In this document: positions 12,935-34,701 of the stretch, one piece after another | How the letters are laid out: each line of letters starts with the position of its first letter | Position numbering within the stretch: the stretch's first letter is position 1 | Assembly (NCBI GenBank): GCA_028282785.1 | Contig: JANQHE010000061.1 | Location: 1-64,000 of the forward strand | Source: Bacteroidales bacterium | Lineage (GTDB): Bacteria > Bacteroidota > Bacteroidia > Bacteroidales > UBA12077 | Length of the DNA stretch: 64,000 nt | Reading direction: 5' to 3' | Notes under the pieces: generated by a model | Told to the model about the DNA's origin: nothing | Seen by the model: the letters and a program-made list of their open reading frames with translations, nothing else | Databases searched by the model: none | Program-made: the position numbers and the translations under genes

Positions 12935-14575
12935 TTATTCGTGATTATTTGTATAATCAGTAATGATTTGATTTCTAAGTTCTAAAAACATTTGAGTAAC
13001 ATCATTCATTAAACCATTTGAATAGTTTGTTAGATATTCTTGCGCCTTTTTTGGATCTTTTTTATATAATTTTAATGCTTCTTCTTCCAAAGTCTTTTGA
13101 TAATCAAACATCTTGGCTTCAAATGGATCACGAACTTCTCTAACGTCTTTAATTATTTCCTGAAATTTTAAATTTGCTAAATTATCAACAAAATCAATTG
13201 CCCATCTTGCCGACTTTTCGCTGTATTGATTAGGATCATAAATTTGATATGATTCGTGAGTTGATAAATTGCCCGCATAAATTGGTACGTAAGGGCTAAA
13301 ATATGGATTATCTAAATATACCCAGTATACTCCGCCTATTTCATTTGGTAACCAGTCACGTAACTGAAGAACCATCCCATAATGTCCACGGTGGCGAGCT
13401 ACCGGTCGCCTATACGTTATATTTAAAAGTTTTCTTAAATCACTACCTGGAAACGGAGTTGCTAAAGGGCTTTTTTCATATCCTCCATTTCCGTCCGGTA
13501 CTAACCAATTTGGATCATAGGTCATATCATAAATGGTTCCTTCATACGTAGAGCGTTGAAAGGCTATTACGTCCTGAACAGATATTTTTTCTTCAGGCTT
13601 AACAGAGAATGGATAAATTGATAATGGTTCAACATATTGAAAGTAAGGTTGAATACCTTTATATGGATTTCCTTCAGGAAATCTATTTGGCCATTCTTTC
13701 AGATTAGGTACAAATGTTTGGTGGAATAACCAAAAGCGACTGGTAGCATACTCTACAGAGCTTGATGGAGCATAAATTTCTTGCCATATAAATGGTTCTC
13801 CGGAATTTGGATCGTACCATCCCCGGTTAATAGCTTCCTGCATATAATTTTTAGAAACCATAAAATTTTCTTCATCCTCTGCATCGATTTCTTTTATAAT
13901 GCTCCAGTTAGGTATCATGGTTGCTTCATCTTCAGGTAAACGTTGAGCCGCCCATATTGCTCCCGGTTTTCCGCTTTCGGGTTCCCATCCATGCCCAACT
14001 CCAAATACTTCAAAAACCCAAATCTCTTCAGTATCCGCAACAACTAAACATTCGGAACCATCTCCACTTGAAGGTATAAACCCATATGTTGTCATTAAAT
14101 CTCCGATAAACTGAACTGCTTCCCGAGCTGTTTTATAACGTTGTAAAGCAAATATTTGTGCTTGTTCAATGGACATAATCTGTTTGCCTTCACCTTTCAT
14201 ACAGATCAGTTCTTTTCTTTGAGCAGTTGTACTTTCTGCAATTCCTAACTGATATTCGTTTACTTGAGAATATGCAGACTGGAAATATTTAAATGTTTTT
14301 TCAACTTGTGGAATGTATCCTAATATTTCACCATTATCTTTTAATGGACGATCTGCATCTTGAATACCCCAATAAACCGGTGCTTTAGAACCCGGTTTAA
14401 AGGTTTGTGCCGGAACCACAAAAATCCTGGAATCTGGTCCTGTATCTGTATGTGAAATTATATTTGAACCATCCGCTGATGCTTTTTTGCCAACAGCAAT
14501 AACGGTACAAGCTTTTGATTTTAAATGAAATCCCAAAGCCAGGATTAATAAAATTGATAATACTTTACGTAACAT
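12935..14575 (-). CDS. C69-family (U34) dipeptidase, exported
   Basis: A 546-residue Ntn-hydrolase. A signal-like N-terminus (LSILLILALGFHLKSKA) leads straight to C23 in CTVIAVGKKASADG, the catalytic nucleophile exposed by processing in this family. Downstream are HTDTG, SGDGSECLVVADTEEIWVFE and a C-terminal coiled region. Family members (PepD-like dipeptidase A) cleave dipeptides with broad specificity. The gene lies downstream of the hydroxyproline genes on the same strand, separated by 175 bases, and has its own candidate -7 element. It may supply the last peptide-cleaving step of that locus, outside the cytoplasm. Confidence 0.85.
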   Translation of the reverse strand: MLRKVLSILLILALGFHLKSKACTVIAVGKKASADGSNIISHTDTGPDSRIFVVPAQTFKPGSKAPVYWGIQDADRPLKDNGEILGYIPQVEKTFKYFQSAYSQVNEYQLGIAESTTAQRKELICMKGEGKQIMSIEQAQIFALQRYKTAREAVQFIGDLMTTYGFIPSSGDGSECLVVADTEEIWVFEVFGVGHGWEPESGKPGAIWAAQRLPEDEATMIPNWSIIKEIDAEDEENFMVSKNYMQEAINRGWYDPNSGEPFIWQEIYAPSSSVEYATSRFWLFHQTFVPNLKEWPNRFPEGNPYKGIQPYFQYVEPLSIYPFSVKPEEKISVQDVIAFQRSTYEGTIYDMTYDPNWLVPDGNGGYEKSPLATPFPGSDLRKLLNITYRRPVARHRGHYGMVLQLRDWLPNEIGGVYWVYLDNPYFSPYVPIYAGNLSTHESYQIYDPNQYSEKSARWAIDFVDNLANLKFQEIIKDVREVRDPFEAKMFDYQKTLEEEALKLYKKDPKKAQEYLTNYSNGLMNDVTQMFLELRNQIITDYTNNHE

Positions 14576-14750: not shown

Positions 14751-15794
14751 TTACCGGAAAATGAAACCTTTTTTCAAAGGATCGGAAGGGGCAAAATAAA
14801 ATTCATTCTGTCCTGTAATAAAAGCAGTTCCCGTAACTTCCGGTATAACAGCATTATGTGGGCCATATGCAGTGGTTTCAACAACTTCAACATCCATGGT
14901 GGTCCCCAGAATACTTTCTATAGTAATTTTTTCATTTAGGTTAAGTTCCTTTTTTGCAAAATGTAGTGCTGCTCTTGCACTCACACCAGAACCGGTAGGA
15001 GAACGGTCTACTTCACCTTCTGCAAAAATGCATACATTTCGGCTATGGTGATTGGTATTAAATGCTTTTCCAGTAAAAATAGTTCCGTATAAAAAACTTA
15101 AATCTTCTTCGAATGGATGTTTTATTTCATATTTATTCATTACTGCATATTTGATCTTTCTTCCGAAATCGATTAAACGGTTATAATCAGAATCATCCAT
15201 TTTTAAGCCTAACTCATCAGCGTTACAAAAAGCATAAAAAGCTCCACCAAAAGCAATATCAAATTTTACTTTTCCTATTTCAGGAACATCAATAAGTTCA
15301 TCTTTTAAATACAAAAATGAAGGTACATTTTTGAAGGAGACTTTTTCTACTATTCCATTTTTGCGAAAAGCTTTAGCAAATATTTTCCCCGGAGGAGCAT
15401 TGATTATCAGTTCTGGTTCATCACCGTCTTTTTGAACCATACCTGTATCTAAAACCAATTTTGTCAAAGCAATTATTGCATGCCCGCACATGGTACTGTA
15501 ACCTTCGTTGTGTAAAAAGAATGTTCCAAAGTCTGCATCTGCCGTGGTTGGTTCAGTTATAATCGCTCCATACATATCAGCATGACCACGAGGTTCAAAC
15601 ATGGTTCCGGTTCGGATGAAATCAAAATTATTACGAAAGTACCTTCTTTTTTCCAGGATTGTTTTTCCTTTAACTTCAGGTAAACCATTGGTATATACTC
15701 GTAAAGGTTCACCTCCTGTATGCAGGTCAATGGTATTAATTTTTAACCAATCTTTGGGTGGGGTCCATTTCCAGTTTTTTAATATACCCTTCAT
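14751..15794 (-). CDS. lhpH: Trans-3-hydroxy-L-proline dehydratase (proline racemase superfamily)
   Basis: A 347-residue proline-racemase-like protein. The first catalytic Cys is present (C103 in YSTMCGHA), but the second active-site position is Thr (T267 in DRSPTGSG) instead of Cys. In this superfamily Cys/Cys marks racemases and epimerases, while Cys/Thr marks trans-3-hydroxy-L-proline dehydratase, which makes delta-1-pyrroline-2-carboxylate (family knowledge). The next gene upstream encodes a matching reductase. I place the start at the ATG at 15794. An upstream GTG at 15818 is in frame, but its extra residues fall in repeat-derived sequence. Confidence 0.85.
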   Translation of the reverse strand: MKGILKNWKWTPPKDWLKINTIDLHTGGEPLRVYTNGLPEVKGKTILEKRRYFRNNFDFIRTGTMFEPRGHADMYGAIITEPTTADADFGTFFLHNEGYSTMCGHAIIALTKLVLDTGMVQKDGDEPELIINAPPGKIFAKAFRKNGIVEKVSFKNVPSFLYLKDELIDVPEIGKVKFDIAFGGAFYAFCNADELGLKMDDSDYNRLIDFGRKIKYAVMNKYEIKHPFEEDLSFLYGTIFTGKAFNTNHHSRNVCIFAEGEVDRSPTGSGVSARAALHFAKKELNLNEKITIESILGTTMDVEVVETTAYGPHNAVIPEVTGTAFITGQNEFYFAPSDPLKKGFIFR

Positions 15795-15811
15795 TTTTCT
15801 TTTTCTGTTTA

Positions 15812-15852
15812 GTGTCACTCTATCACGATAGCTATCAAGCTGTCGAAGTGTG
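15812..15852. repeat. Dispersed repeat with TGTCGAAGTGTGA word, copy 1
   Basis: The spacer holds 'gtgtcactctatcacgatag' followed by 'ctgtcgaagtgtgat'. Related words occur at 18334-18363 and 23134-23160, always between genes of the hydroxyproline locus. These resemble the 'actctgagcctgtcgaag' family of intergenic repeats of Bacteroidota. Confidence 0.5.
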
Positions 15853-15853
15853 A

Positions 15854-16816
15854 TTATATTTTAACTTCTTGTCCCAAGCCTTTTTCTTTAGCGCTATTAT
15901 ATATCAGCTCTGCAACTGTTAAGTCAAATAATGACATACCTACAGATTTAAACAAACATAAAGATGCTTGCTCAAGTAACTCTCCGCTGGTTATAACTGT
16001 ACTAAATGGAACTATATTTTCATTTTTAATTAGCCCTTTTTCAAGTGGAATTTTTATATCACCACATTCTTCCTTGGCATGCAACGTATCAACATAAACT
16101 TTATCAACTTTTTTATAAACAGATAAAGGAATCTCTTGCATATCAGGTTTGTATGAACCTATTGCAAAGAAATACTTATTCTCAAGTTTCTCTAAGTCAA
16201 TATCAAATACCGGGTCATAAGAAGAAGTGGCAGTTACTATAACATCAGAATCTATTACTGTTTGATTTGAATTATCTGTAACGATAATTTCAATATTTTG
16301 TAATTTATTCTGTAAATCATCTTTAATAACTTCAGCTTTACTAATGTTTTTATCACAAATTATTAATTTTTGAAATGGACGGACATTACTAATTAACAGA
16401 GCCTGGTGATATGCTTGTACACCTGCTCCAATAATTCCCAAAGTTTTAACGGAGAAGGGTGCAAGGTATTTAACAGCGGTAGCACCAACGGCACCTGTAC
16501 GCATTGCAGTAAGTTTATTTCCATTAATCAGCGCTAATGGTTCTCCGGTTTTGGCCTCATTTAAAACCATAACACCATATAAAACCGGCTTATTTTCACT
16601 TGTATTTTTAGGGAATAATGAAACTAACTTTGTGCCAAATACACTTTCGATAAAGCCCGGCATTAGCAATAATGTATTTTCATTATTATCCAGGTGCATC
16701 CTGTCTGGAATGTTGGTAGTTGCTTTATCCTGTATTATATAAGCTTTTTCTATAGCGCTAATCAATTCATTTGGATCGATGGCAACTTTAATATCTTCTT
16801 CACTAACTATTAACAT
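15854..16816 (-). CDS. lhpI: Ornithine cyclodeaminase/mu-crystallin family; likely delta-1-pyrroline-2-carboxylate reductase
   Basis: About 320 residues with the family Rossmann motif GIIGAGVQAYHQA and the conserved region GNKLTAMRTGAVGATAVKYLA. Members include ornithine cyclodeaminase, ketimine reductases and the pyrroline-2-carboxylate reductase of trans-3-hydroxyproline catabolism, which makes L-proline with NAD(P)H (family knowledge). The function is inferred from its place directly upstream of the trans-3-hydroxyproline dehydratase gene; ornithine cyclodeaminase remains possible. The ATG at 16816 begins right at the conserved MLIVSEEDI; a longer frame from 16858 adds 14 residues without family character. 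Confidence 0.75.
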   Translation of the reverse strand: MLIVSEEDIKVAIDPNELISAIEKAYIIQDKATTNIPDRMHLDNNENTLLLMPGFIESVFGTKLVSLFPKNTSENKPVLYGVMVLNEAKTGEPLALINGNKLTAMRTGAVGATAVKYLAPFSVKTLGIIGAGVQAYHQALLISNVRPFQKLIICDKNISKAEVIKDDLQNKLQNIEIIVTDNSNQTVIDSDVIVTATSSYDPVFDIDLEKLENKYFFAIGSYKPDMQEIPLSVYKKVDKVYVDTLHAKEECGDIKIPLEKGLIKNENIVPFSTVITSGELLEQASLCLFKSVGMSLFDLTVAELIYNSAKEKGLGQEVKI

Positions 16817-16840
16817 GATTTTTTGAGTAAAGTTAGAAAG

Positions 16841-16870
16841 ATTCCATCCCGATATCAATCAGGATGGAAT
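16841..16870. repeat. Hairpin between Xaa-Pro peptidase and reductase genes
   Basis: Perfect 9-base arms ATTCCATCC (16841-16849) and GGATGGAAT (16862-16870) around a 12-base loop. It lies in the 61-base spacer, which also covers the reductase 5' region. The minus-strand side is followed by CTTTCT, so attenuation is possible, but a repeat element is as likely. Confidence 0.5.
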
Positions 16871-16877
16871 TACAGAA

Positions 16878-18272
16878 TTAATTGAATGCTTTTGCCCGTT
16901 CAGATTCAACTTCTTTAATAGTTTTAGCAAGTGGTTTTCCTAATACCTTATAACCATCATCAGTGATTAAAATATCTTCTTCGTTTCGAGTACCTCCAAA
17001 ACCTTTATATTTTTCAACTTTATCGTAATTTATAAATTCTGTGAATTTGTTTTGTGATTTCCAAAGGTCAATTAGTTCCGGAATAAAATATATCCCTGGT
17101 TCAATGGTCAATACATAGCCTGGTTTTAACTCGCGCCCTAAACGCAATGATTTTATCCCAAACAAAGTACTCTTAGGTTCGCCGGCATAACCAACATACT
17201 GCTCACCAAGATTTTCCATATCGTGAACATCTAATCCCATTAAATGACCAGTGCCGCAAGGGAAGAATAGGGCATGAGCTCCTTCATAAATAGCCTCTTC
17301 AGTATTTCCTTTAGTAAATCCTAATTTTTTTAATCCATCAAAAATGGTTCGGGCAGCAGTAAAATGAATTTCTTTAAAATTTATTCCTGGTTTTAAAGCT
17401 TCGATAGCTGCATTATGAGCATTTAATGCTATTTGGTAAATCTCTTTTTGCCTTTCGGTAAATTTTGGTGAAACCGGAAATGTACTGGACATATCACCTG
17501 CATACCTTAACTCATTTTCAGCACCAGCATCCAGTAAGAACAAGTCACCTTCTTTAATTGTATTGCCATGGTAATGATTGTGCAATGTTTGCCCATTTAT
17601 TGTGGCAATTATCGGGAATGAGATATCGCCACCTGCAGACTGGGCAACTTCATGTACTTTAGCAGCAACTTGTGCTTCAGACATGCCTGGTTTAGCAAAA
17701 CGCATAGCTGCCAAATGCATATCTGAAGTAATACTAACAACCTGTTCAAGCTGTTCAATTTCTTCTGCTGATTTGATATTTCGTTGTTCTCCAACTGCAA
17801 CTATCAGGTAAATGGAAGAATGTTTCTTTGTATCATTTATTGGTATGTCCAGCCAATTATGCAATTTTATTTGGTGCTCAGGGCGATATGCAGGTAAAAA
17901 GTGGATTTTCCTGTTTTTTTGTTTAGCTGATTTGAGAAACTCGAGCATTTCACTCATCTGCCCTGTATTTTCAATACCGGCTTTTTCACTTCTTTCTTTT
18001 ATGGTAGGTTGGGACCCCATCCACACAATATGGTCAATGGTTAAATCATTACCAAAAATGTAATCTTTACCTTCGTCAAGGTCAATGATCCCAACCAATC
18101 CTGGGTAATCTAACCCAAAATAATAAAGGAAAGAACTGTCTTGCCTGAATCGGTATGTATTGTCCAGATAATTCATTGAACTTTCTTCATTTCCAAGAAA
18201 AAGAAGAATTCCTGAATCCATTTGTTTTTTTAATTGTTTACGTCGGTTTATATAAGTTTCTTTATTAAACAT
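16878..18272 (-). CDS. pepP: Xaa-Pro aminopeptidase (aminopeptidase P family, M24B)
   Basis: A 464-residue M24 peptidase. The metal ligands are recognisable in LLDAGAENELRYAGDMSSTFP, the GTGHLMGLDVHD segment, TIEPGIYF and NEEDILIT. The N-terminal aminopeptidase P domain is present (YRFRQDSSFLYYFGLDYPG). It removes an N-terminal residue that precedes proline or hydroxyproline. No signal peptide is seen, so it should act in the cytoplasm on imported peptides. It lies between the DPP-IV-like gene and the hydroxyproline catabolic genes. Confidence 0.9.
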   Translation of the reverse strand: MFNKETYINRRKQLKKQMDSGILLFLGNEESSMNYLDNTYRFRQDSSFLYYFGLDYPGLVGIIDLDEGKDYIFGNDLTIDHIVWMGSQPTIKERSEKAGIENTGQMSEMLEFLKSAKQKNRKIHFLPAYRPEHQIKLHNWLDIPINDTKKHSSIYLIVAVGEQRNIKSAEEIEQLEQVVSITSDMHLAAMRFAKPGMSEAQVAAKVHEVAQSAGGDISFPIIATINGQTLHNHYHGNTIKEGDLFLLDAGAENELRYAGDMSSTFPVSPKFTERQKEIYQIALNAHNAAIEALKPGINFKEIHFTAARTIFDGLKKLGFTKGNTEEAIYEGAHALFFPCGTGHLMGLDVHDMENLGEQYVGYAGEPKSTLFGIKSLRLGRELKPGYVLTIEPGIYFIPELIDLWKSQNKFTEFINYDKVEKYKGFGGTRNEEDILITDDGYKVLGKPLAKTIKEVESERAKAFN

Positions 18273-18389: not shown

Positions 18390-20669
18390 TTATTTATATT
18401 CAGTAAATTCAAATTCTTTTGGTGGTTCAATGTTCCAAAGGTGCTTAACGAAATAGTCCATTCGTTTACGGATCAAATACGTATTTCCCCATAACTGGGA
18501 ATGATTGTGGTTTGGAACAATAATTAAGTCAAAATCCTTATTATAATTCACAAGTTCGGCTGCTAACCTATAGGTACAGGCTGGATTTACATTATTGTCC
18601 ATGTCTCCATGAACTAACATTAATTTACCTTTAAGGTTTTTAGCTATTGTTAAATTAGATTGCTCGATATAGTGATCGCCGGGTCCACCCATATATTGTT
18701 CCGGCCACCATGCTTTTGCCATGCGATGATCATGGTTTCCTGCAGCAGCTACTGCTACTTTGTAAAAATCAGGATACATTAAAATAGCATGTGCAGCATC
18801 ATATCCCCCAGCGGAAAATCCAAATATTCCAACTTTGGTGGTATCAATGTAATCATATTTTTCAGCTAATTGCCTTATTCCGGCAATATGGTCTGGTGCT
18901 CCTATATCTCCCAGATTTTTGTACGAAACATCATGAAAAGCTTTTGATCGCATAGCAGTTCCCATACCATCAATTCGCATTACCAAAAAGCCAACTTCTG
19001 CAAGTGGGGTCCAGTCGTTCCAAATTCCACGGCGGAATGATTTAGGAACATTAACTGCTTGAGGACCAGAATAAGAATTGTCAATTATAGGATATTTTTT
19101 ATTTGGGTCAAATGTTGATGGGTATTGTAATACCCCATATATATCTGTTTTCCCGTCACGTGCCTTAACCGTAAACCTTTCAGGATATTTCCAGCCTGTT
19201 GCCAGCAATTTATCTATGTTGGATTCTTGCAATTCTTTAATTAATTTGCCATCAAACAACCTTCTTAGAACCGCTTTTGGTTTTAAATCAACACGAGAAT
19301 AGTTATCAATGAAATATTTATAATCCGGAGAGAACTGAATTTCATGTTCAGCATCTTCAGGAGTTAATAAGGCCATTCCGCTACCATCGTAATTTATTTT
19401 GTATAGATGCTTGAAATAAGGGTCACGGCCTTTTTCAACTCCACCTGCTGTAAAGTATATTACTTCATTTTTTTCATCAATATAATTTATTGCCCTAACA
19501 ACAAACTCACCTTTTGTAATTTGATTAATTAATTCCCCGGTTTTTCCATCGTATAAATATAAATGGCTCCATCCGTCGCGTTCCGACATCCAAACTACTT
19601 TTTCTCCGTTATTTATTAGTTTGCAACCAACCATTTGATATTCAATCATAGTGTTTGCATCCTCATGAATTATATTTCTAACGTTTCCTGTTTCAGAGTC
19701 AATAAAGTACAAATCAAGAGCTTTGTAGTACCTTGCCATTTGAGCAAAATAGAATGTTTTACTATCTTCGGTCCAATTTGGAGCAAAGCCGGACCACAAG
19801 TCTTCTAACGGTTCCAAATCAGCTTTTATATTTGATTTGGTTTCAATATCAAAAATGTAATATTCCTGTAATGGTAAATCTTCTCCTGGCAATGCTCTTT
19901 CGTATGACCATACTTTTGCCCGCATTCCACTATCTGGAAGAGATTGGTACATGTATAGTTTTTTTGCATTCCTTCTATCTAACTTGGTTGCAATAAACTT
20001 TTTAGAATCAGGTGACCATTCTACCCAAATGCTTGGATCATAAATATTGCCCTTTGATTCATCTATAATCTTATACCAATCTAAAGGAGATGCATAGTCG
20101 TGACGGTCAATTCCGTCAAAGGTTAGCTGGAATTCTTCCCTGGATTTAGTGTCTCTTAAATAGAGGTTATGATCCTTAACAAATGCGATCCATTTTCCAT
20201 CCGGTGATTTTGATTCATTCTTTTTAAGTTCATCGTTTTTTGGGGTATATTTTGAAATCACATTTTTCTTTACATCGTATTTAAAACTTAAAGTATCTAC
20301 TTTAAACAGAATGGTTTTCAAATTATGTTTGAACTTAATCTTAGAGAACGGGAGAGAGTCGGAGTTTACTTTTTTATCAAGTTCCTTTTCTAATTCTTTC
20401 GCTAATTTCTGATGATTAAAGGCAGGTTTAACTTCGTTTTTTTCAGAAAGAACAAGCATAAAACGGTGCCCATTTTCGAGTTCAGTTTTATACCAAAAAT
20501 TACTTGATTTATCAATCCAGTTAGGATTTAAATAGAGATTTTGAACTAAGTTGTACACATTAAAATGTAAAAACTTTTCTGCTCTTTGATAGTCTTCAAA
20601 AGTTCCTTGCGAGAATAAACTTTTAATAAACGCAAAGATAATTAGGGCGATTAAATATACTTTTCTCAT
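18390..20669 (-). CDS. Dipeptidyl peptidase IV-like S9 peptidase, exported
   Basis: A 759-residue S9B-type serine peptidase. A signal peptide is clear (KVYLIALIIFAFIKSLFSQG). A WD/beta-propeller region precedes the C-terminal alpha/beta hydrolase. Catalytic residues are visible as Ser in FGFSAGGYDAAH, Asp in VHGDMDNNV and His in PNHNHSQ. DPP-IV enzymes release N-terminal X-Pro dipeptides in the periplasm or at the outer surface (family knowledge). Placement directly downstream of the hydroxyproline dehydratase gene suggests X-Pro and X-Hyp peptides as substrates (inference). Confidence 0.9.
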   Translation of the reverse strand: MRKVYLIALIIFAFIKSLFSQGTFEDYQRAEKFLHFNVYNLVQNLYLNPNWIDKSSNFWYKTELENGHRFMLVLSEKNEVKPAFNHQKLAKELEKELDKKVNSDSLPFSKIKFKHNLKTILFKVDTLSFKYDVKKNVISKYTPKNDELKKNESKSPDGKWIAFVKDHNLYLRDTKSREEFQLTFDGIDRHDYASPLDWYKIIDESKGNIYDPSIWVEWSPDSKKFIATKLDRRNAKKLYMYQSLPDSGMRAKVWSYERALPGEDLPLQEYYIFDIETKSNIKADLEPLEDLWSGFAPNWTEDSKTFYFAQMARYYKALDLYFIDSETGNVRNIIHEDANTMIEYQMVGCKLINNGEKVVWMSERDGWSHLYLYDGKTGELINQITKGEFVVRAINYIDEKNEVIYFTAGGVEKGRDPYFKHLYKINYDGSGMALLTPEDAEHEIQFSPDYKYFIDNYSRVDLKPKAVLRRLFDGKLIKELQESNIDKLLATGWKYPERFTVKARDGKTDIYGVLQYPSTFDPNKKYPIIDNSYSGPQAVNVPKSFRRGIWNDWTPLAEVGFLVMRIDGMGTAMRSKAFHDVSYKNLGDIGAPDHIAGIRQLAEKYDYIDTTKVGIFGFSAGGYDAAHAILMYPDFYKVAVAAAGNHDHRMAKAWWPEQYMGGPGDHYIEQSNLTIAKNLKGKLMLVHGDMDNNVNPACTYRLAAELVNYNKDFDLIIVPNHNHSQLWGNTYLIRKRMDYFVKHLWNIEPPKEFEFTEYK

Positions 20670-20750: not shown

Positions 20751-23114
20751 TTATAATTCTTCATGTTCTGTTCTTCGGATAATTTCATTTTGCAGGTCTT
20801 CTCCCAGGTCATTGAAATAGTCGCTATAACCAGCAACGCGTACAATTAAATCGGTGTATTTTTCAGGGTATTTTTGTGCTTCACGCAAGGTTTTTGCACT
20901 TACCACATTAAACTGAATATGATGCCCCTCCATTCTGAAATAACTTCTTACCAGGTAAGAAAGCTTCTCGATGCTCTGTTTGTCTTTAAAAAAGGATGGA
21001 GAGAATTTTTGATTTAATAATGTTCCGCCAGTTTTAATATGGTTAATTTTTGCTGCAGATTTAAGAACCGCTGTTGGTCCTTTTTTGTCTGCACCCTGAA
21101 ATGGGCTAATTCCTTCAGATAATGGTTCAAACTCTTTGCGTCCGTCTGGTGTTGCTTTCATAACACTTCCAAAATAAACGTGGCTTGTTGTGGGTAACAT
21201 ATTTATTCTATATTTACCTCCCCGGAAAGTTGGTTTCCCGTTTACGGCATCATAAAATGTGTTGAAAACAAAAATAGCATGTTGGTCTGCATAGTCGTCG
21301 TCGTTGCCATATTTTGGAGTTTCATAAATCAAATCATGGCGAAGTTGTTCATATCCTTCAAAGTTTAAATCCAAAGCCTTTAAAAGCTCATCCATCGTTA
21401 CTTTTTTCTTATCGAAAACATTGTATTTTAATGATGTTAAGTTATCTGTAACACTTCCCAACCCAACACCTTGTACATAGCTAGTATTATACCGGGCTCC
21501 TCCGGCATTGTAATCCACACCATTAGAAATGCAATCTTCTATAATCAACGATAAGAAAGGAACAGGTAATTCTTCTGCGTATAACTTTTCAATTATGTTA
21601 TTACCCTTCAATTTAATATCGGCAAAATAATTTAACTGCTTTTTATATGCTTCCAATAGCTCATCCATTGAATTGAAACTTCTTGGATCGCCGGTTTTTA
21701 AGCCAATTTCTTTTCCTGATCGAGGATCAGTTCCATTGTACAAAGTTATTTCAAGTATTTTATTTAAGTTGAAATACCCGGTTAAAATGTAGCTTTCGGT
21801 TCCAAAAGCACCGGTTTCAACACACCCACTGGCACCGCCATTTCGAGCGTCAATAATGTCTTTACCTTGACTAACTAACTCCTTAATGATTGCATCAGTA
21901 TTAAAAATAGATGGTTGCCCAAACCCTGTTTTTGTAATTTTAATGGCTCGTTGTATAAATTTATCCGGGTTCTTTTTACTTAGTTGCACCATTGAACTAG
22001 GCTGAAGAATCCTCATTTCTTCAATAACATCTAAAAGAATATAGGTTAATTCGTTAACGGCATCTGTTCCATCTTCTTTTAATCCACCTAAATTAATTAA
22101 AGAGAAATCGGTATAGGTATTGCTTTCTAGTGCAGTAACTCCCATTTTAGGTGGAGAAGGGTGGTTGTTGAATTTTACCCAAAATGCCTGTAATAATTCA
22201 ACGGCTGATTCTTTTGTTAAAGATCCATTTTCGATTTCTTTTTTATAAAAAGGATACAGGTGCTGGTCTAACCTTCCTGGGTTGAATGAATCCCACGGAT
22301 TTACTTCGGTTATCACTCCTAAGTGAATAAACCAATAATGTTGGAGCATTTCATGAAAAGTTTCCGGGGCATTAGCAGGCACCTTTTTACAAACTCTGGC
22401 TATTTCAATTAACTCATTCTTTCTTTTTTTATCCTTTTCAGTTTCTGCCAATTTGATCAAAGCCACTGCATAACGGTGAGAAAATGCTATAATAGCATCT
22501 GCTGCTATGTCCATCGCCTTTAATTCTTCAATTTTGCCTTGAGCTTCCGGATCATTGGAAACCTCATATTTATTAATCGATTCTTGAATTTCCTTTTTCA
22601 AATCCAGCATTCCTTTCTGAAAGATTTTTTTGCCGGCAACTGTATGTCCTGGTGCCCTTTGCTCTTGAAATTCGGTAAAAACACCGGCTTCATAAGCTGC
22701 TTTCCATTCACCGGGCAATAATTCAAACATTTTATCCCGTTGAGTATTACCTTTCCAGAATGGAATAATTTCGTTGTTATAAACCTTTTTGGTTTCATCA
22801 TCTACTTTAAACCAAACTTTTGGCCTTGTATCTAATACCTCCAGGTCTTTCATCGAATGTAAACTTACTTCAGGGTAAGTAGGTGTTGCTTTAGGAGCAG
22901 GGCCACGTTCGCCAACAATTAATTCATTATCGCTAATGCATATTTCTTTATTTTCCAAAATATATTTAAATGTCATTGCACGTTTTACCGGTTTCGAAAC
23001 CTGGTTCGCAATTTCATTTTTATAAAATTCTGTAACCAAAATAGCTCTTTCCGGAGATAATGTATTTGTAGCTGTTAAGCTTTCATTTCGTAATTTTTTT
23101 ATTCGTGTATTCAT
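20751..23114 (-). CDS. hypD: Glycyl radical trans-4-hydroxy-L-proline dehydratase
   Basis: A 787-residue glycyl radical enzyme. The thiyl Cys and general-base Glu are in ASGCVETG, and the radical Gly (about residue 762) is in RVAGYSDYF. Further family landmarks are APGHTVAG, TEVNPWDSFNPGRLDQ and YILTGYFNLNKILEITL, which fit HypD of Clostridioides and not glycerol, choline or isethionate enzymes. HypD converts trans-4-hydroxy-L-proline to pyrroline-5-carboxylate, which ProC reduces to proline (family knowledge). The frame extends to 23162, but those 16 extra residues come from a dispersed repeat. The ATG at 23114 gives the usual family length. Confidence 0.9.
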   Translation of the reverse strand: MNTRIKKLRNESLTATNTLSPERAILVTEFYKNEIANQVSKPVKRAMTFKYILENKEICISDNELIVGERGPAPKATPTYPEVSLHSMKDLEVLDTRPKVWFKVDDETKKVYNNEIIPFWKGNTQRDKMFELLPGEWKAAYEAGVFTEFQEQRAPGHTVAGKKIFQKGMLDLKKEIQESINKYEVSNDPEAQGKIEELKAMDIAADAIIAFSHRYAVALIKLAETEKDKKRKNELIEIARVCKKVPANAPETFHEMLQHYWFIHLGVITEVNPWDSFNPGRLDQHLYPFYKKEIENGSLTKESAVELLQAFWVKFNNHPSPPKMGVTALESNTYTDFSLINLGGLKEDGTDAVNELTYILLDVIEEMRILQPSSMVQLSKKNPDKFIQRAIKITKTGFGQPSIFNTDAIIKELVSQGKDIIDARNGGASGCVETGAFGTESYILTGYFNLNKILEITLYNGTDPRSGKEIGLKTGDPRSFNSMDELLEAYKKQLNYFADIKLKGNNIIEKLYAEELPVPFLSLIIEDCISNGVDYNAGGARYNTSYVQGVGLGSVTDNLTSLKYNVFDKKKVTMDELLKALDLNFEGYEQLRHDLIYETPKYGNDDDYADQHAIFVFNTFYDAVNGKPTFRGGKYRINMLPTTSHVYFGSVMKATPDGRKEFEPLSEGISPFQGADKKGPTAVLKSAAKINHIKTGGTLLNQKFSPSFFKDKQSIEKLSYLVRSYFRMEGHHIQFNVVSAKTLREAQKYPEKYTDLIVRVAGYSDYFNDLGEDLQNEIIRRTEHEEL

Positions 23115-23133
23115 TTTGTTTTGTTTTTTAATT

Positions 23134-23160
23134 GCCACTCTGAGCCTGTCGAAATGTGAC
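23134..23160. repeat. TGTCGAAG repeat family, copy 3
   Basis: 'ccactctgagcctgtcgaa' followed by 'atgtgac' in the spacer between the activase and dehydratase genes. It matches the repeat words at 15812-15852 and 18334-18363, and accounts for the spurious N-terminal extension of the hypD frame. Confidence 0.5.
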
Positions 23161-23181
23161 AAATTTTAAATTAATAACTAT

Positions 23182-23976
23182 CTATCCTCCAATTCCAACT
23201 TTAAATCCTATGGATTCGAATTCCAATTTAAGTTGTAACATCTCATGATCAGATAATGGGCTGACATTCTTCATTTTATTTTCTTTATTAAACCTATTGT
23301 ACTTACCATTCGAAATATTATGGTATGGTAATAAATCAATTCGGTTAATATTTTTTAACGACTTAATAAATGATTTTACTTCTAAAAGGTTTCTCTCTGT
23401 ATTGGTTATTTCAGGAATCACAGGAAATCTTAAAATAACATTTTTATTATTCTGATCCAGCCAATTTAAATTTGATATAATCTCAAAAACAGGAGTGTTA
23501 GTATAGTTGTAATGTAAATAACTGTCAATTAGTTTGATATCATATAAAAAGCAATCTGCAACTTCTGCAATTTTTTGTACATTTTTTTCAGAGGCAAAAC
23601 CTGTGGTGTCAATGCAAGTATGTATATTGTTTTCTTTGCAAATTTTAGTGATTTCAAATAAGAAATTGGCTTGCATCAATGGTTCTCCACCAGAAAAAGT
23701 TACACCACCGTTTGATTCTTCAAAAAATATCCTGTCGCCTTCAATTATTTTAAAAAGTTCATCGGTAGTTATTTTATATCCTACTTTGACTTCCTTTTTA
23801 AATTCTTTTCCATCAAGCTTATTTATTTGGGTAAAGGTTTCTATACTTTTTTCCTGGCTTTCAGGATTGTGGCACCACCAGCATTTTAAAGGGCAACCTT
23901 TAAAAAATATGGTTTGCCTTATTCCCGGGCCATCGTGTACAGCAAAATGTTTAATATCGAAAATTGTACCTTCCAT
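23182..23976 (-). CDS. Glycyl radical enzyme activase (radical SAM), partner of HypD
   Basis: A 264-residue radical SAM protein with the activase signature HDGPGIRQTIFFKGCPLKCWWCHNPES, shown here only to identify the CxxxCxxC motif, and FSGGEPLMQ. It installs the glycyl radical on the dehydratase encoded 67 bases downstream. Most dehydratase activases carry a ferredoxin-like insert with eight cysteines just after the radical SAM motif. This protein has a short insert with no cysteines there, as in pyruvate formate-lyase activase. It is the first catabolic gene of the minus-strand locus. Confidence 0.85.
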   Translation of the reverse strand: MEGTIFDIKHFAVHDGPGIRQTIFFKGCPLKCWWCHNPESQEKSIETFTQINKLDGKEFKKEVKVGYKITTDELFKIIEGDRIFFEESNGGVTFSGGEPLMQANFLFEITKICKENNIHTCIDTTGFASEKNVQKIAEVADCFLYDIKLIDSYLHYNYTNTPVFEIISNLNWLDQNNKNVILRFPVIPEITNTERNLLEVKSFIKSLKNINRIDLLPYHNISNGKYNRFNKENKMKNVSPLSDHEMLQLKLEFESIGFKVGIGG

Positions 23977-24072
23977 TTTAAGAAATTAATTATTAGTAAA
24001 AAAGAGAAAATATTCAAATAGGGCTCAATTATCCTAATGAATTTCTAATAGGGGTATTAAAAATGAAAGGAT

Positions 24073-24135
24073 CTAATAAATCCAGCATTCGTATAAGCCT
24101 TTGCCAAATTTGTGATATAAAGTAGATAATTTCAT
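24073..24135 (-). CDS. Micropeptide ORF, copy 1 (LYHKFGKGLYECWIY C-terminus)
   Basis: A 20-codon ORF (MKLST then LYHKFGKGLYECWIY, stop TAG) in the gap upstream of the activase gene. An in-frame ATG at 24159 would give 28 residues. A second ORF at 34605-34676 ends in the same 15 residues with one change (K to N), yet five sense codons differ only synonymously (Tyr, Phe, Leu, Glu, Ile) and the stop codons differ (TAG, TGA). That pattern implies selection on the peptide. There is no signal peptide. It ends 96 bases before the next co-oriented gene, a leader-peptide position. I do not recognise the family. Confidence 0.6.
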   Translation of the reverse strand: MKLSTLYHKFGKGLYECWIY

Positions 24136-24300
24136 AAAGAAATAGTGGCTTTTAAACATTGCTAATTTACGAATTTTTATTGAAAAAGTTATGTTTGTTA
24201 TATGTTAAAATATCTTATTTTATGGGTGTCAGAAAATAATTTTCAATATTACAGCCAGGAATAAAATCGAATAGTTAATAATTTTGCAGATTGATATAAA

Positions 24301-28224: not shown

Positions 28225-29664
28225 TTAGTATCCAGGGTTTTGTTGATCAGTTATATTTTCATTTCGTTCAATCTCTCTAACTGGAATAGGTAAAATATAC
28301 CTATGACCGGGATAGTTAACCAATGGAGTAGCATTGTTTTCAGGACGAACATTATCTTCATTTGCAATAGCTAAATCAAATAGCCTGTGCCCTTCACATG
28401 CCAGTTCTTTTCTTCTTTCCGCAAGAATTAAAGATTTTGTTAAATTAGAAGCATCGGGTAAGCCTCTTGCATTTAAAAGTTCATTTAGCCTGTCAAGCCC
28501 ATCATCGTTATTCCCAAGGCCAAGATTAGCTTCAGCACTGATCAAATACATTTCGGCAACCCTAAGAATCTTGATGTTATTCTCGTAAACACTTACATAG
28601 CTTTCTTTTGGCAAGAATTTCTTTGTTCTGATTTCATTATTCTCATCTCTTTCATATAAATTTAACCTTTCATCTGATGAGTCGAACAAACCAAGTAATT
28701 CTTCTGTAATTACCAGGTCGCTATAAGGATATTCAGTTCCAATATTAAATAAGCTATTTAGACTTTCGTTTCCAGGGAAATAATTTTCGTTTGAATTTGA
28801 GTAAACTTGAAAGATCGTTTCATCTCCTTCTTCCTGTACCCAATAATTAACCACATCTTCGCCTTCAGCAAGAGGGTATTCGCCAGAATTAATTACTAAC
28901 TCAGAATAGTAAAGTGCACTGTCGGCATTTTCCCGGTAATGGTAAACCCTTGCTAATAGTGCCCTGATTGAATTCTGGTTTGCGAAATTTTTACCTTTAT
29001 CGAATATAACCATTTTTTCGGCTTTTCTTAAATCGGAAATAACTTGTTTATAAACTTCATTAACCGAATTTCTTGCAGGGAATATTGTAACATCTGTTAT
29101 AGTAATAACAGGAACGCCCCAGTGTCCTCCGTTTCCATCAGCTCCAGGCGCTAACGATTGATCTTGAATTGTATAGTGGTGGGCAAAAAGCCGGCATAAG
29201 TCAAAATGGCATAATGCCCTTATAAATAGAGCTTCGCTTAAAAGTTGGTTAATTTCTTCATCTGAAGCTTTTTCCTGATCAAATTCTCCGCTGATAATTT
29301 TATTAATAACATTGTTTGATGCACTAATAATATAATAAGGAAGCTCCCAAAGCCCGCTCCAGTAACCGACACTTGGTGCAATGCTTAAATCAAATTCCTG
29401 TACATACCTGCTGGAATTTTTTACTGTCGAACGTTTTACATTATCAGCCATAACTTCAGGTGCGATTTGCATATACGCCCCGTAATAATCGCTTGAGCGA
29501 AGTGGTGCATAAAGCCCATTAGTAGCTTTGCTAAGATTTGTATAATTATTTAAAGCAATAGAATTACTTATTGCATCTGTAGGTTCTGTATTCAGAAAGT
29601 CTTCTGAGCAACTGTAAAAGATAAGTACAGAAAGTATTAATATATATGTAATATTTCTTTTCAT
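28225..29664 (-). CDS. SusD/RagB-family nutrient-binding lipoprotein
   Basis: A 479-residue protein with lipobox ILIFYSC and the SusD layout: EDFLNTEPTDAIS at the N-terminus, TPR-like helices (EALFIRALCHFDLCRLF, RALLARVYHYRENADSALYY) and the C-terminal RRKELACEGHRLFDLAI...YPGHRYILPIP. It forms the lid of a SusC channel and captures glycans or peptides. It is shorter than typical glycan SusD proteins (about 550), like RagB, which binds peptides. Its link to a protease and hydroxyproline genes favours peptides here (inference). Confidence 0.9.
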   Translation of the reverse strand: MKRNITYILILSVLIFYSCSEDFLNTEPTDAISNSIALNNYTNLSKATNGLYAPLRSSDYYGAYMQIAPEVMADNVKRSTVKNSSRYVQEFDLSIAPSVGYWSGLWELPYYIISASNNVINKIISGEFDQEKASDEEINQLLSEALFIRALCHFDLCRLFAHHYTIQDQSLAPGADGNGGHWGVPVITITDVTIFPARNSVNEVYKQVISDLRKAEKMVIFDKGKNFANQNSIRALLARVYHYRENADSALYYSELVINSGEYPLAEGEDVVNYWVQEEGDETIFQVYSNSNENYFPGNESLNSLFNIGTEYPYSDLVITEELLGLFDSSDERLNLYERDENNEIRTKKFLPKESYVSVYENNIKILRVAEMYLISAEANLGLGNNDDGLDRLNELLNARGLPDASNLTKSLILAERRKELACEGHRLFDLAIANEDNVRPENNATPLVNYPGHRYILPIPVREIERNENITDQQNPGY

Positions 29665-29675
29665 AATTTTAGTTT

Positions 29676-32600
29676 TTAGAATTCTATTTGAGTTCCGAAG
29701 GAAATCGATTGAGTATTTGGATATTTATATGAACCGGACCCAGTAGAACCTCTTTCAGGGTCGAGGCCATTTACATTTGAAAATGTTAATAAATTGGTTC
29801 CTTTAGCAAATAAAGTAAGATTGCTGAGTTTGATCCTGTCTAGCCATGATTTTGGTAAAGCATATGATAAAGTTACGAACTTTAACCTTAAATAAGATCC
29901 GTTATCTAACCATCTTGAATTATCCCAGTCATTAGCACCTGTTGGGTTATTAACTAATGGTTTTGGTGTATCCGTAATGTCTCCGGGCCTTTGCCAGCGG
30001 TCGAGCTGATTTGTATTAGCATTTTCTCCCCAGCTTGCACCGTCGTGTTCAGAATAGTGCCTGTCTCCAAATATAATTTCATTTCCATAAACGAAATAGA
30101 ACATAAAGTCTAAACTAATTCCTTTATATGATAAGGTATTAGTTAAACCTCCGTAAAAATCAGGTTCAGGGCTACCTACATTTGCTCTGGACGCTTCACT
30201 GTAGGTAAAAGTAAGGTTGCCATTCTCGTCATACCACATTGGCATACCGTTGGCAGGGTTTACTCCTGCATATTTATACATCCAATATTCCATATATGCT
30301 CCACCAACACGGTGCCGGTATGTAGTTCCAACGTAATCTTCTCCAGCCAGGTCTAATATTTCACTCTTTGGGAAAGAAATGTTAAAACTAGTATTCCAAC
30401 TTAATTCTCCCTGTAGGTTTTTGGTTTGTAATGTAATTTCTAAACCTTCATTTCTTAGCGAACCAATATTTTTCAATACTGAAGAGAATCCGGATGTATA
30501 TGATAACTCTTGATATAACAGATTATCAGTTGTTTTTGACCAGAAATACTCAAATGTACCGGAGATTCTGTCTTTTAAGAGCCCAAAATCCAGAGCGATA
30601 CCGGTAGTAGCAGTTTTTTCCCATTTTAAATCGGGATTTTCAATTTTATCAGGCAATAAACTACTTTCTCCGTTATAAGTAATAACCGAGTAATATCCTT
30701 TGGAAGCGTACCAGGCTATATCACTGTTACCCGTTGTACCATAACTACCTCTCAACTTCAGTTTACTGATAAAGTTGGAATTAAAGAATGATTCTTCACT
30801 AATTCTCCAACTTCCCGAAATAGAGCCAAATGTCCCGTATTTATAATCATCCCCAAAAACAGATGAACCATCTCTTCTTAGGCTACCTTGTAAATAGTAG
30901 CGGCTGTCGTAATTATAAGAAAAGTATCCAAAATAGGAGTTACTTGTAAGTTTTGAAGGGTTTCCTTCGATTTCCTGTCCCTCTGCAACAGTTGTACTCA
31001 GATAAGGCATTTCATGATTAGCACCTTTCCCACTTCCGCTAATATATTCATAATCTTCTTGCATTCCTTCCTGTCCTAAGATTGCAGTTACAGAATGTAT
31101 CTCAGCGATTATTTTATTGAAAGTAATAGTATTAGAAATGGACATTTGAATATTATTTTCATGGCCTTCCCAGTAATAACCTTCTCTTCCTGCATAAATC
31201 GGAGCTCTTGGGTCTTCAAAATCATGACTTTTAGTATAACCATAATCTAACCCGAAAGTGGATTTAATGCTTAGAAAGTTCCATGGTTTAAATTCCAGGT
31301 AAGTACTATTTAGTAACTTAGTATATTCCTGTCCCTGGTCTTGAAATTTATCCACTCCGTGTGGATTATAGTTGCCATGGGCACCGCCAAGATCGAAATT
31401 TACACTGCCATCTTCATTAAATGGTGCATAATATGAAGGAATGGCCATTGCTGCAAATATTGGGTTTTCCCACGGAAGTACACCACCTGAAGCATCATAA
31501 ACATAATTTTGTTTAGAAAAAGAACCCATGACTTTTGTACCTACTTTGAATTTTTCATTGGGCGATAAATGATCAAGCCTTACGTTTCCAGTATACCTTT
31601 CAAAGTCATAGTTCATAATAGCACCTTCGTTTTTGTTGTAACTCCCGGATAAATAGAATGTAGTATTCTCATTTCCTCCGCTAGCGGATAGGTTATAGTT
31701 TTCTAATTTACCGGTACGAGTAACCTCATCCCACCAATCTGTATCTGTGTTTGCAAGCTCATCGGGTAAATAATATTCGCCATTCGGATCGGTCCAGTCA
31801 TATTTAGTAGGGTTATTATAATATTCTGCTGAGTTTTCTACTGCTTCTCTTTGTAATTCCAATAATTCAGCAGAGCTTAGCATATCAAACCCAGTGTTAA
31901 TTACCTTTGAGACACCATAATCTGCACTAAAACTAAATCTGGTTTTTCCTTTGGCACCTGTCTTAGTTTCGATGAGTACTACGCCATTTGCAGCACGCGA
32001 GCCATATATTGCTGCCGCTCCTGCATCTTTCAAAATAGTCATTGATTTAATGTCGTTTGGATTTAAAGATGAAAGGATACTGAAGCTTTGAGAAGCTCCT
32101 GTTTCACCAGAAACAGCAGGAACACCATCAATTACGAAAAGAGGTTGGTTTCCTGCATTTATCGAAGTGGCACCTCTGATTTGAATATCCGGGGCACTTC
32201 CGGGAATCCCTCTTAAACTAGTAGTCATAACACCAGCCACATTTCCTTGTAATCTTTTTTCAATATTAGAAGCGGAAACAGCTTCAATATTTTTTGATTC
32301 GACAGAAGAAACAGAACTGGTTAAAGCTTCTTTTCGTTGGATTGCATAACCAGTTACAATAACTTCGTCCAAACCCAGGGCCTCGGGTTCTAATATCACA
32401 TCTATTACAATTCTTGAATTAATTGGAACAACTTGTGTTTGGAATCCAACAGATTGAAAAACAAGGTTAGAAGCAGAAGAGGGTACAATTAATGCATACT
32501 TGCCATCTAAATCAGTTGCTGTACCAATTATATTCATTCCTTCAACATATACTGATACTCCAGGCAGAGAAGTATCATCTTCAGAATTGGTAACCGTACC

Positions 32601-32890: not shown

Positions 32891-34534
32891 TTAGTAAGCT
32901 GCTAAAAAAGCTACTAAATCAATATCTACATTATTTAAGTTTAGCTTTTTACGTAGTCTTGTTCTTGCAACTTCAATGCTATTTATTGATTGGTGTGTTA
33001 TAGATGCAATGTCTTTTGTACTCATATTAAGTTTAAGAAATGCACATAACCTAAGGTCATTGCTTGTTAAATTATTAAAATCCTTACGAATATTTCTAAA
33101 GAAGTTAGTGTGTACTTTTTGAAAGCGGTATTCGAATTCTTTTAAGATGTTTTCATGATAATTTCCTCTTAGGTCTTTTACAATATCATCGATGAAATTA
33201 TAATTGGTTTTCTTTAGATTAGGAAGCACTGACCTCAGTTTATTAATTACCCGGTTAATTAACTCATTTCTTTCAAAAAGGTTCATCATCATTAAAACTA
33301 TTTCTTTATTGCGGAATTCCAGTTTTTCAGATAAACTTTCAGCTTCGATCTTTATTTTTTCATTTCGTAATTTGGCTTCTCGTATTTTTCCCCTTTGGTA
33401 TACAATATATGAAACTGCTGATGCAACACTTATTAAAAAGATTGTAGTGGCAGTCCATATTGAGGTTTTTGTTTTACGTTGTTGTTTCAATAAAGTGATG
33501 TTATGTTGAATTTCTTTTTTTTTCTGTTCGTATTGAAATTCTAATAGAGTTAACCTCCCTGAATTATCAATACTAAAAATGCTATCACTTAACTTTTTGT
33601 GTATAAGTTGATATTCAAAAGCTTTTTTATAATTTTCTTTTTTAGAATAAATCTTGCTTAATGAAGCTGCTATATCATTTTTATAAGATGGCAAATAATA
33701 TTGTTTTGCTAACTGATATCCATTATATAGGTAAACTAACGCAGAATCATAATTGTTAGCCCAAATGTAATAATCTCCAATATTATTATAAACTAAAACT
33801 TTTACTTTCGTTTTATTTGTGTTTATACTGTCGACAAATTCGATTGCTTTATTAAAATAAGTTATAGCTTTTGGGTTTTTATAGTGTTTATAATAAAGGT
33901 TGCCCAGGTTGTTATAAGTGATAGCTAAACCTCTATAGTTATTCATGTTATGGCCAATATTTAATGACAGTTTATAGTTTTCTTCTGCTTTTTGCAACTC
34001 ATTATACTGAACATAGATATTTGCAAGGTTATTATAAATGAACCTAGCTCCTTCAAAATCGTTTAGTTCTTCATATATACTTAATCCTTTTTTATAATTT
34101 TCAAATGCTTTTTCATAATTTTTTGCGCTGTAATAGATATTGCCAATAAAGTTATAGTTATTTGCTATTTGTCTTTTATTGCCTGATTCTTCATCAATTT
34201 TCATTTTTTTCAGAAGGTTAGCCATGGTTGATTTGTAATCGGCCATATAATAATACGTCCAGGCTAGGTAAAAAAGGGTGTTAGAGACACCCTTGTCATA
34301 TTTTAATTCTTTGGAAAGTTCAATAGCTTTATTCCCATAATATATGGCTTTTTCATAATTTATTTCATTTAAGGCATTGGTAATTTCTACAAGTAAATTG
34401 ACCTTATTAGTGTCATTTTTAAGTTCATGCAGGCTTGAAATTAGGGAATCTGCTATTCTGTCCTGATTGCTTTTAGCATTTGAATTTATATTTATAAATA
34501 TCAAAGGAATTATGATGTAAAATGATTTAGCCAT
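32891..34534 (-). CDS. TPR-repeat membrane regulator with C-terminal LuxR-type HTH
   Basis: A 547-residue protein. A hydrophobic N-terminus is followed by about seven TPR repeats (such as NNLANIYVQYNELQKAEENY and NNLGNLYYKHYKNPKAITYF) to residue ~330. A transmembrane helix follows near 355-375 (TTIFLISVASAVSYIVY), then a coiled coil and a C-terminal HTH (SNDLRLCAFLKLNMSTKDIA...SINSIEVARTRLRKKL). In this layout the periplasmic TPRs would sense and the cytoplasmic HTH would bind DNA. Similar Bacteroidota proteins sit beside SusCD loci (family knowledge). It directly precedes susC on the same strand and is the likely regulator (inference). Confidence 0.8.
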   Translation of the reverse strand: MAKSFYIIIPLIFININSNAKSNQDRIADSLISSLHELKNDTNKVNLLVEITNALNEINYEKAIYYGNKAIELSKELKYDKGVSNTLFYLAWTYYYMADYKSTMANLLKKMKIDEESGNKRQIANNYNFIGNIYYSAKNYEKAFENYKKGLSIYEELNDFEGARFIYNNLANIYVQYNELQKAEENYKLSLNIGHNMNNYRGLAITYNNLGNLYYKHYKNPKAITYFNKAIEFVDSINTNKTKVKVLVYNNIGDYYIWANNYDSALVYLYNGYQLAKQYYLPSYKNDIAASLSKIYSKKENYKKAFEYQLIHKKLSDSIFSIDNSGRLTLLEFQYEQKKKEIQHNITLLKQQRKTKTSIWTATTIFLISVASAVSYIVYQRGKIREAKLRNEKIKIEAESLSEKLEFRNKEIVLMMMNLFERNELINRVINKLRSVLPNLKKTNYNFIDDIVKDLRGNYHENILKEFEYRFQKVHTNFFRNIRKDFNNLTSNDLRLCAFLKLNMSTKDIASITHQSINSIEVARTRLRKKLNLNNVDIDLVAFLAAY

Positions 34535-34604
34535 GATAAAAAACTAAAATAATCAATTTAGGAAGTAGGTAATAAATCAAAAATTAAGTGCTAAGGAGTG
34601 GAGG

Positions 34605-34676
34605 TCAATATATCCAGCACTCGTAAAGGCCTTTGCCGAAATTGTGGTATAAGTAATTTGAACAGAAAGGATTCAT
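34605..34676 (-). CDS. Micropeptide ORF, copy 2 (LYHNFGKGLYECWIY C-terminus)
   Basis: A 23-codon ORF (MNPFCSNY then LYHNFGKGLYECWIY, stop TGA). The final 15 residues match the ORF at 24073-24135 at 14 positions, while the N-termini differ. It ends 70 bases before the TPR-LuxR gene on the same strand. A full -7 element (TATATTTG) stands 17 bases before its ATG, giving a leader of only about a dozen bases. Length, lack of a signal peptide and position suggest a leader or nascent-chain peptide; a short signalling peptide is possible. I do not recognise the sequence. Confidence 0.6.
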   Translation of the reverse strand: MNPFCSNYLYHNFGKGLYECWIY

Positions 34677-34693
34677 ATCAAACTTAATTGATA

Positions 34694-34701
34694 CAAATAT
34701 A
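34694..34701 (-). promoter_or_regulatory. -7 element before micropeptide copy 2
   Basis: TATATTTG on the minus strand is a full TAnnTTTG match. Transcription would start near 34687, reading first the micropeptide and then the TPR-LuxR gene. No -33 TTTG is seen at 19 bases. Confidence 0.5.

Follow-up and report, generated by a model that had tools for sequence, protein, structure and literature searches.

A short conserved open reading frame as the probable cis leader of hydroxyproline and proline-peptide catabolism genes in Bacteroidales

The stretch of 64,000 nt which was analyzed here (contig JANQHE010000061.1, positions 1 to 64,000; referred to as the window) carries two copies of a very short ORF which we consider, with a probability of about 0.9, to be a cis leader of a gene set for hydroxyproline and proline-peptide catabolism. 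The theme common to the genes headed by this ORF is the release and breakdown of hydroxyproline and proline peptides. Hydroxyproline is the signature amino acid of collagen. The combined evidence suggests that the leader turns on the downstream genes via a ribosome pause. An initial annotation had claimed selection at the level of the peptide; this claim stands, but the role as a cis leader ahead of catabolism genes had been missed.

The two copies in the window and their neighborhood

Both minus-strand ORFs that had been picked out in the initial annotation are present (Table 1). When their 15 shared codons are compared by eye, one non-synonymous (K/N) and five synonymous differences (Y, F, L, E, I) are seen, and the stop codons differ, all as originally reported. 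Copy 1 would have a length of 28 aa (24073-24159) if the upstream ATG at 24159 serves as start. The likeness is indeed limited to the ORFs, with 85% DNA identity across 46 nt and no extension detected by a repeat finder. The 26-nt core pattern has two matches in the window and none in 100 shuffles. When the family profile was applied to the whole genome (5.5 Mb), both copies were retrieved (E 3.3e-10 and 2.5e-9). A third copy was found in this genome neither by the pattern (up to three mismatches) nor by the profile, the next match of which has an E value of 0.5. A repeat or mobile element was rejected, given only two copies in the genome and flanks that are not conserved.

Table 1. Coordinates of the window features discussed in the text
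Feature	Coordinates	Strand	Remarks
Leader peptide ORF copy 1 (putative), MKLSTLYHKFGKGLYECWIY	24073..24135	-	20 aa, class A, stop TAG
Leader peptide ORF copy 2 (putative), MNPFCSNYLYHNFGKGLYECWIY	34605..34676	-	23 aa, class A, stop TGA
Match to Bacteroidota -7 element TAnnTTTG, TATATTTG	34694..34701	-	17 nt before copy 2 ATG
Spacer, copy 1 stop to hypG	23977..24072	-	96 nt, G-poor, C>G; candidate Rho-loading (rut-like) region
Spacer, copy 2 to TPR gene	34535..34604	-	70 nt, G 6%, C 21%
hypG, radical SAM glycyl-radical-enzyme activase	23182..23976	-	TIGR02494, 251.5 bits (cut-off 174.35)
hypD, trans-4-hydroxy-L-proline dehydratase	20751..23162	-	NF043068, 1259.6 bits (cut-off 1100)
S9 peptidase, DPPIV-like	18390..20669	-	putatively in the hypGD operon
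M24 Xaa-Pro aminopeptidase	16878..18272	-	aminopeptidase P domains; NCBIfam below cut-off
Ornithine cyclodeaminase / mu-crystallin family, pyrroline-2-carboxylate reductase-like	15854..16858	-	NCBIfam below cut-off
Proline racemase family, trans-3-hydroxyproline dehydratase / 4-hydroxyproline epimerase-like	14751..15818	-	NCBIfam below cut-off
C69 peptidase family	12935..14575	-	
TPR protein, regulator-like	32891..34534	-	next after copy 2; signal-like N-terminus, membrane-like segment by eye
SusC-like TonB receptor	29676-32684	-	after TPR gene
SusD-like protein	28225-29664	-	after TPR gene

HypD converts Hyp to P5C (PMC7077986). The top-scoring model for the window hypG is NF043069 (T4Hyp dehydratase activase, 276.1 bits), below its cut-off of 425. 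The TPR protein shows a weak helix-turn-helix signal at its C-terminus (GerE, E 0.15; Sigma70_r4_2, E 0.018; both below cut-off). The SusC-like and SusD-like genes are possible uptake genes of the same unit, which is an inference.

Some further features of the window were noted. An FAD-dependent oxidoreductase of the DAO family (11695-12813, plus strand) is oriented convergently to the C69 gene, the last one of the hydroxyproline cluster; as a guess, it might act on D-hydroxyproline from the racemase/epimerase-like enzyme. Direct repeats which are 67-70% alike occur at ORF ends (9051-9120, 57598-57667, and 63581-63650), and the ORF at 9050-11461 has an ADOP-type duplicated permease match below cut-off. 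The repeats are probably paralogues rather than mobile repeats. The minus-strand ORF at 7712-8080 codes for a member of the 23S rRNA-intervening-sequence protein family (PF05635).

Extent of the family and selection on the peptide

What had been described as a two-member family is far larger, with 111 distinct loci of the type found in the window (class A, having 89 distinct 16-residue ends) and 13 loci of a second class (class B). The exact 26-nt pattern, when compared to the GTDB contig collection, matched five Bacteroidota or Chlorobiota contigs, and each of these contains a micro-ORF that runs in frame from ATG to stop. When one mismatch was allowed, a degenerate GKGLYECW pattern was found at 22 places in 19 of 59 genomes (own genome counted), and all of these are the ends of short open frames. 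The [YF] version of this pattern has 44 places in 42 of 393 genomes from an order-wide sample; 42 of these places are members, and two (G715:C62 and G722:C55) were dropped as non-members according to the profile. Divergent members which are missed by the DNA pattern were found upstream of hypD genes that had been located independently with a HypD model. The stop-anchored profile of 16 positions gave 136 hits across all loci at that stage, from which the 111 loci were obtained after merging duplicates by their flanking DNA. On reversed sequence, it matched none of 31,227 windows, with one weak match when the stop anchor was omitted. Because the profile was trained on motif-selected peptides, members match it by construction.

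The class A consensus is [LM]YHxxG[KR]GL[YF]xC[W/L][I/M]x-STOP. With residues numbered from the stop, Leu -7 and Tyr/Phe -6 are found in all 111 loci, Cys -4 in 110, Trp -3 in 95, Tyr -14 in 93, and Gly -10 in 92. The core contains neither a run of one codon nor a conserved Pro. Class B has a variant end, YRRLFECLMF[YF]x or alike, and its stop comes two codons later than in class A. A Chlorobiota-labelled relative (L003) is odd in having three extra codons before the stop. The residue-to-stop distance is fixed in the 111 class A loci, which follows from the construction of a stop-anchored profile; compared to this, class B is shifted by two codons and L003 by three. In 108 of the 111 class A loci, an ATG opens a frame that encodes 15 aa or more. 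Two of the three others have an in-frame GTG, and L068 lacks any ATG, GTG, or TTG between 15 and 44 codons upstream of its stop.

The family is found predominantly in the order to which the window belongs. There, 125 genomes with HypD were examined, namely 124 of the 129 that exceed the cut-off (5 were left out) and G711, a fragment below it. Of these, 95 carry a leader, which is class A in 86 and class B in 9 genomes, and 30 have none in the stretch read. At the level of HypD-bearing families of the order, 40 of 54 have class A, or 41 of 54 when class B is counted. Outside the order, the 22 HypD loci over the cut-off are associated with no class A and four class B leaders. Searches with the DNA pattern in 395 phylum-sampled genomes and with the profile in 198 class-sampled genomes returned only the own genome, and the profile found 2 of 57 genomes in one other family. 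These counts outside the order are lower bounds because true members can escape the profile, as did those of G405 and G403, which stayed below the threshold. A genome may have two copies, as seen in the window genome, G002, and G023.

A codon-substitution test, which the initial annotation had proposed, supports selection on the peptide: dN/dS amounts to 0.093 (pS 0.57, pN 0.094) in 48 independent pairs of relatives. Some of these relatives had been retrieved with a peptide-like pattern, so that conservation is favored; however, of the 86 class A leaders found at HypD loci, 53 escape the DNA pattern where they are located and were found without it. The companion statement that selection does not act on DNA or RNA needs one qualification, as there is also a preference at the nucleotide level: the codon for Gly -10 is GGC in 67 of 92 cases (background 24%), and that for Cys -4 is TGC in 95 of 110 (background 52%). 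This preference, and the presence of two similar copies within one window, would be compatible with a DNA or RNA element (a repeat, a binding site, or a riboswitch) that is open in one frame by chance. We regard this as very improbable in view of the dN/dS value and of the ATG-started frames which persist in nearly all relatives. Also, divergent members share residues more than nucleotides, and a scan of the window against Rfam returned no match, so that an Rfam-type RNA was rejected as the identity of the element.

No annotated family matches the peptide, which confirms the earlier assessment. A search with 35-36 members gave no match in NCBIfam and PDB, and in Pfam only a chance-level hit of one member to Xin (E 0.71). 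Small-protein catalogues may hold the peptide unnamed. A conserved peptide of 20-25 codons can thus precede a well-studied enzyme and yet be absent from Pfam and NCBIfam.

Genes headed by the leader

The gene hypG, which was recognized in relatives by a DG[PQS]G[..]R motif, is found downstream on the same strand in 93 of the 111 class A loci, at a distance of 49-272 nt (median 85). Ten leaders precede hypD. In one of these (L053), the hypD frame begins 57 nt past the leader; in the nine others, the stretch ends at the hypD start, and the leader end is 150-437 nt before that point. Eight leaders do not head hypGD, five being located before peptidase genes and three before a TPR gene. Among the 42 pattern members from 393 genomes, which were found blind to context, 36 are located before hypG, five before peptidases, and one before a TPR gene.

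The five peptidase-heading loci are from three families, with three of them from one genus. L068/L114 continues with S9 DPPIV, M24 aminopeptidase P, a short unassigned ORF, a proline racemase family member, and C69; L116 and L118 have S9, M24, and C69 after the leader, L117 has M24 and C69, and L009/L119 has S9. Domain assignments are Pfam-based for L114, L119, S9 and M24 of L116, and M24 of L117; the genes of L118 and the C69 genes of L116 and L117 were assigned by likeness of the translated start. The genes which follow hypGD in the window, namely those coding for the S9, M24, ornithine-cyclodeaminase-like, proline-racemase-like, and C69 proteins, represent the same gene kinds as the peptidase-heading loci. 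The TPR-heading loci are window copy 2, L020/L125, and L029/L126, all within the genus of the window. No hypGD was found adjoining the peptidase- and TPR-heading loci in the stretches read. For class B, 12 of the 13 loci have no hypG before hypD in the stretch read, and L069 has hypG first; in the four class B loci outside the order, hypG comes after hypD. As a separate observation, L125 has a hydE-like [FeFe]-hydrogenase maturase gene (TIGR03956, 339 bits) just upstream of the leader, and in several loci of the same genus, including L126, the leader is preceded by a gene of similar start or end.

The proximity of a radical SAM gene in 93 of 111 loci raises the question of whether the peptide is a RiPP precursor that is modified by the neighboring enzyme. 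We give this almost no credence. The radical SAM enzyme is a glycyl radical enzyme activase paired with HypD and not a peptide maturase (two loci scanned), and 18 of the 111 loci have no hypG within 450 nt.

If the peptide worked in trans as a free small protein (HypD/HypG could, e.g., need a cofactor, a chaperone, or an oxygen guard), its conservation next to the genes of two paired radical enzymes in the majority of loci and the nearly invariant Cys would make sense. Such a protein would not account for the leader position, for the occurrence before peptidase and regulator-like genes without adjoining hypGD in the stretches read, for the tie between the peptide end and the stop codon, where class A avoids TAA, or for the special spacer composition which accompanies the peptide (see below). 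Also, some genomes hold two copies. We thus consider a role in trans improbable. The nearly invariant Cys also led us to consider an oxygen or redox sensor for the glycyl radical enzyme, an idea that was dropped since the same leader also precedes S9/M24 peptidase genes.

Stop codons, spacers, and a proposed mechanism

The promoter consensus of Bacteroidota has a -7 element TAnnTTTG, and mRNAs of this phylum are devoid of Shine-Dalgarno sequences (both from PMC6847099). In 68 of the 111 loci, the element is found no more than 60 nt from the ATG (shuffles: mean 5.6, maximum 11), and the region from -120 to -60 contains it in 12 of 111. Where the element is present near the ATG, the leader is therefore probably the first ORF of the transcript. 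The element was not found before 43 of the 111 ORFs, window copy 1 among them. Sigma70-type promoters did not exceed the level of shuffles.

Class A leaders avoid the stop codon TAA (TGA 57, TAG 36, TAA 18 of 111, i.e., 16% TAA). In the long ORFs of the same loci, TAA accounts for 205 of 351 stops (58%; Fisher 1.6e-15). With one locus per family, TAA is seen in 6.2 of 39 class A stops. Class B leaders have TAA in 9 of 13 cases. Loci share ancestry in all of these statistics, for which one-per-family draws correct only partly, and p-values are too small because the loci are related to one another.

The spacers between leader stop and hypG contain 21% C and 10% G, with the skew being strongest over the first 20 nt. 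C exceeds G in 88 of 93 spacers versus 53 of 146 upstream controls. In a comparison to upstream regions of hypG genes without a leader, the numbers are 87 of 93 versus 16 of 38 (7 of 22 for those in the order), and the spacers have a higher YC value (0.140 vs. 0.082) and weaker folding (n=38). A run of at least five T is contained in 63 of 93 spacers. A high C:G ratio, YC, and a lack of structure are listed as traits of rut sites in PMC12121999. The spacer is thus a candidate rut-like region as judged from composition and folding only, and Rho binding is an inference. A rho gene is present in the genome of the window. The spacers of L116-L118 are less rut-like than others.

Attenuators of the trpL/hisL kind have a codon run for the regulating amino acid, and the leader is followed by a terminator hairpin with a T-run. 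This kind of attenuator was rejected, given the absence of a codon run and of a core Pro. A terminator scan returned no terminator-like hairpin at both window copies (relatives were not scanned one by one), and the spacers fold weakly, so that an intrinsic terminator or attenuator hairpin was rejected as well.

A cis leader need not sense a metabolite through its nascent chain. It could instead respond to charged tRNA (Cys, Trp, or Tyr) or to general translation, or it could act by reinitiation or translational coupling. The frequency of Cys -4 and Trp -3 and the existence of spacers as short as 49 nt are in line with such options. However, many different residues are conserved instead of a run of one codon, and codon sensing would not need a peptide constraint that reaches back to Tyr -14. 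In 16 of 111 loci, Leu, Arg, Ser, or Ala takes the place of Trp -3, which makes Trp-tRNA sensing unlikely. The lack of a terminator-like hairpin at the window copies and the weak folding of the spacers also speak against these options. We thus judge this group of explanations unlikely, but cannot dismiss it.

Sensing of hydroxyproline or proline by the nascent chain is what we propose instead, tentatively and at somewhat less than even odds, as the identity of the ligand is deduced from gene context only. The leader would be the first ORF of the mRNA. Without inducer, the ribosome would complete the leader and depart, thus exposing the G-poor, C-rich, and weakly structured spacer past the stop. 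Rho could then load on this spacer and terminate transcription upstream of hypG-hypD or of the peptidase genes. In the presence of the inducer, for which hydroxyproline, proline, or a closely related derivative is the most likely candidate, the conserved end G[KR]GL[YF]xC[W/L][I/M]x would hold the ribosome. In class A, the stop codon would be in the A site; class B is presumed to arrest with an equally long chain, when a Tyr/Phe codon occupies the A site. The stalled ribosome would shield the spacer, so that transcription could go on.

For this mechanism as a whole, ribosome arrest combined with Rho-type attenuation, our confidence only slightly exceeds even odds, given that arrest, ligand, Rho action, and the choice of induction over repression are all inferred. 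The avoidance of TAA in class A and its return in class B are as expected, by inference, if the critical chain length is reached at the stop codon in the former and at a Tyr/Phe codon in the latter. The two extra codons of class B and the nine TAA stops among its 13 loci imply that the stop codon itself cannot be the place of arrest in all members. Points against the mechanism are the HypD genomes without a leader (30 of 125), the class A loci without the -7 element (43 of 111) or without an ATG start (3 of 111), the three extra codons of L003, the spacers of L116-L118, the lack of a conserved Pro in the core, and the absence of any experiment. A wider reading has the same arrest peptide copied before the Hyp dehydratase, proline-specific peptidases, and a regulator, which would form a regulon with two stop registers and one arrest chain length; this remains conjectural, and we would not bet on it at even odds.

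Leaders of comparable architecture are known. SpeFL senses ornithine, which is the substrate of the enzyme under its control, and differs from the present family in sequence, host group, and presumed ligand. It belongs to the termination-arrest kind (PMC8429421), and the likeness is that of an amino acid leader of this kind, with arrest being inferred in our case. TnaC has 24 aa, heads the catabolic tryptophanase operon of E. coli, and acts at its stop codon, where the tryptophan-held ribosome blocks Rho from a rut site immediately downstream (same source). The family described here resembles TnaC in having a short leader before a catabolic operon and a candidate Rho-loading stretch right after the stop. 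It differs by heading several kinds of gene sets and by the other stop register of class B, and its ligand and arrest are inferred. To our knowledge, there is no sequence resemblance between them. A short same-strand ORF directly before a catabolic operon, a trait of the TnaC/SpeFL kind, is found here as well (93 hypG, 10 hypD, and 5 peptidases of 111). Hydroxyproline or proline is considered the likely inducer by analogy, because the ligands of TnaC and SpeFL are substrates of the enzymes which they control. The ToiL uORF of E. coli topAI also combines a uORF with Rho-dependent termination and a rut site in the 5' region, but what it senses are antibiotics that target the ribosome, and the conserved residues are its first seven (PMC12121999), whereas the present family conserves the C-terminus and heads catabolic genes.

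The main text of PMC7077986 is silent on "leader", "operon", "regulat", and "Bacteroid", so that leader regulation of HypD/HypG is not treated there. A literature search returned no paper joining hydroxyproline dehydratase, or glycyl radical plus proline, with a leader peptide. At the level of titles and opening abstracts of the papers listed, with most subscription papers and all supplements out of scope, it returned nothing on this peptide and no metabolite-sensing arrest peptide in the Bacteroidota. We know of very few arrest peptides which sense an ordinary metabolite. If the mechanism is true, it would explain the control of hydroxyproline breakdown in these anaerobes, which belong to a phylum without Shine-Dalgarno mRNAs. 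Also, the occurrence in 41 of 54 families, with more than 100 natural variants and two stop registers, would then represent a natural mutational scan of ribosome silencing by a nascent chain.

A minor observation concerns the internal sequence of some leaders. In L010 and L027, an out-of-frame ATG within the leader (GA-ATG-TTG/CTG-GAT) opens a stop-free frame into hypG, and in other loci too, short out-of-frame ORFs begin at that internal ATG.
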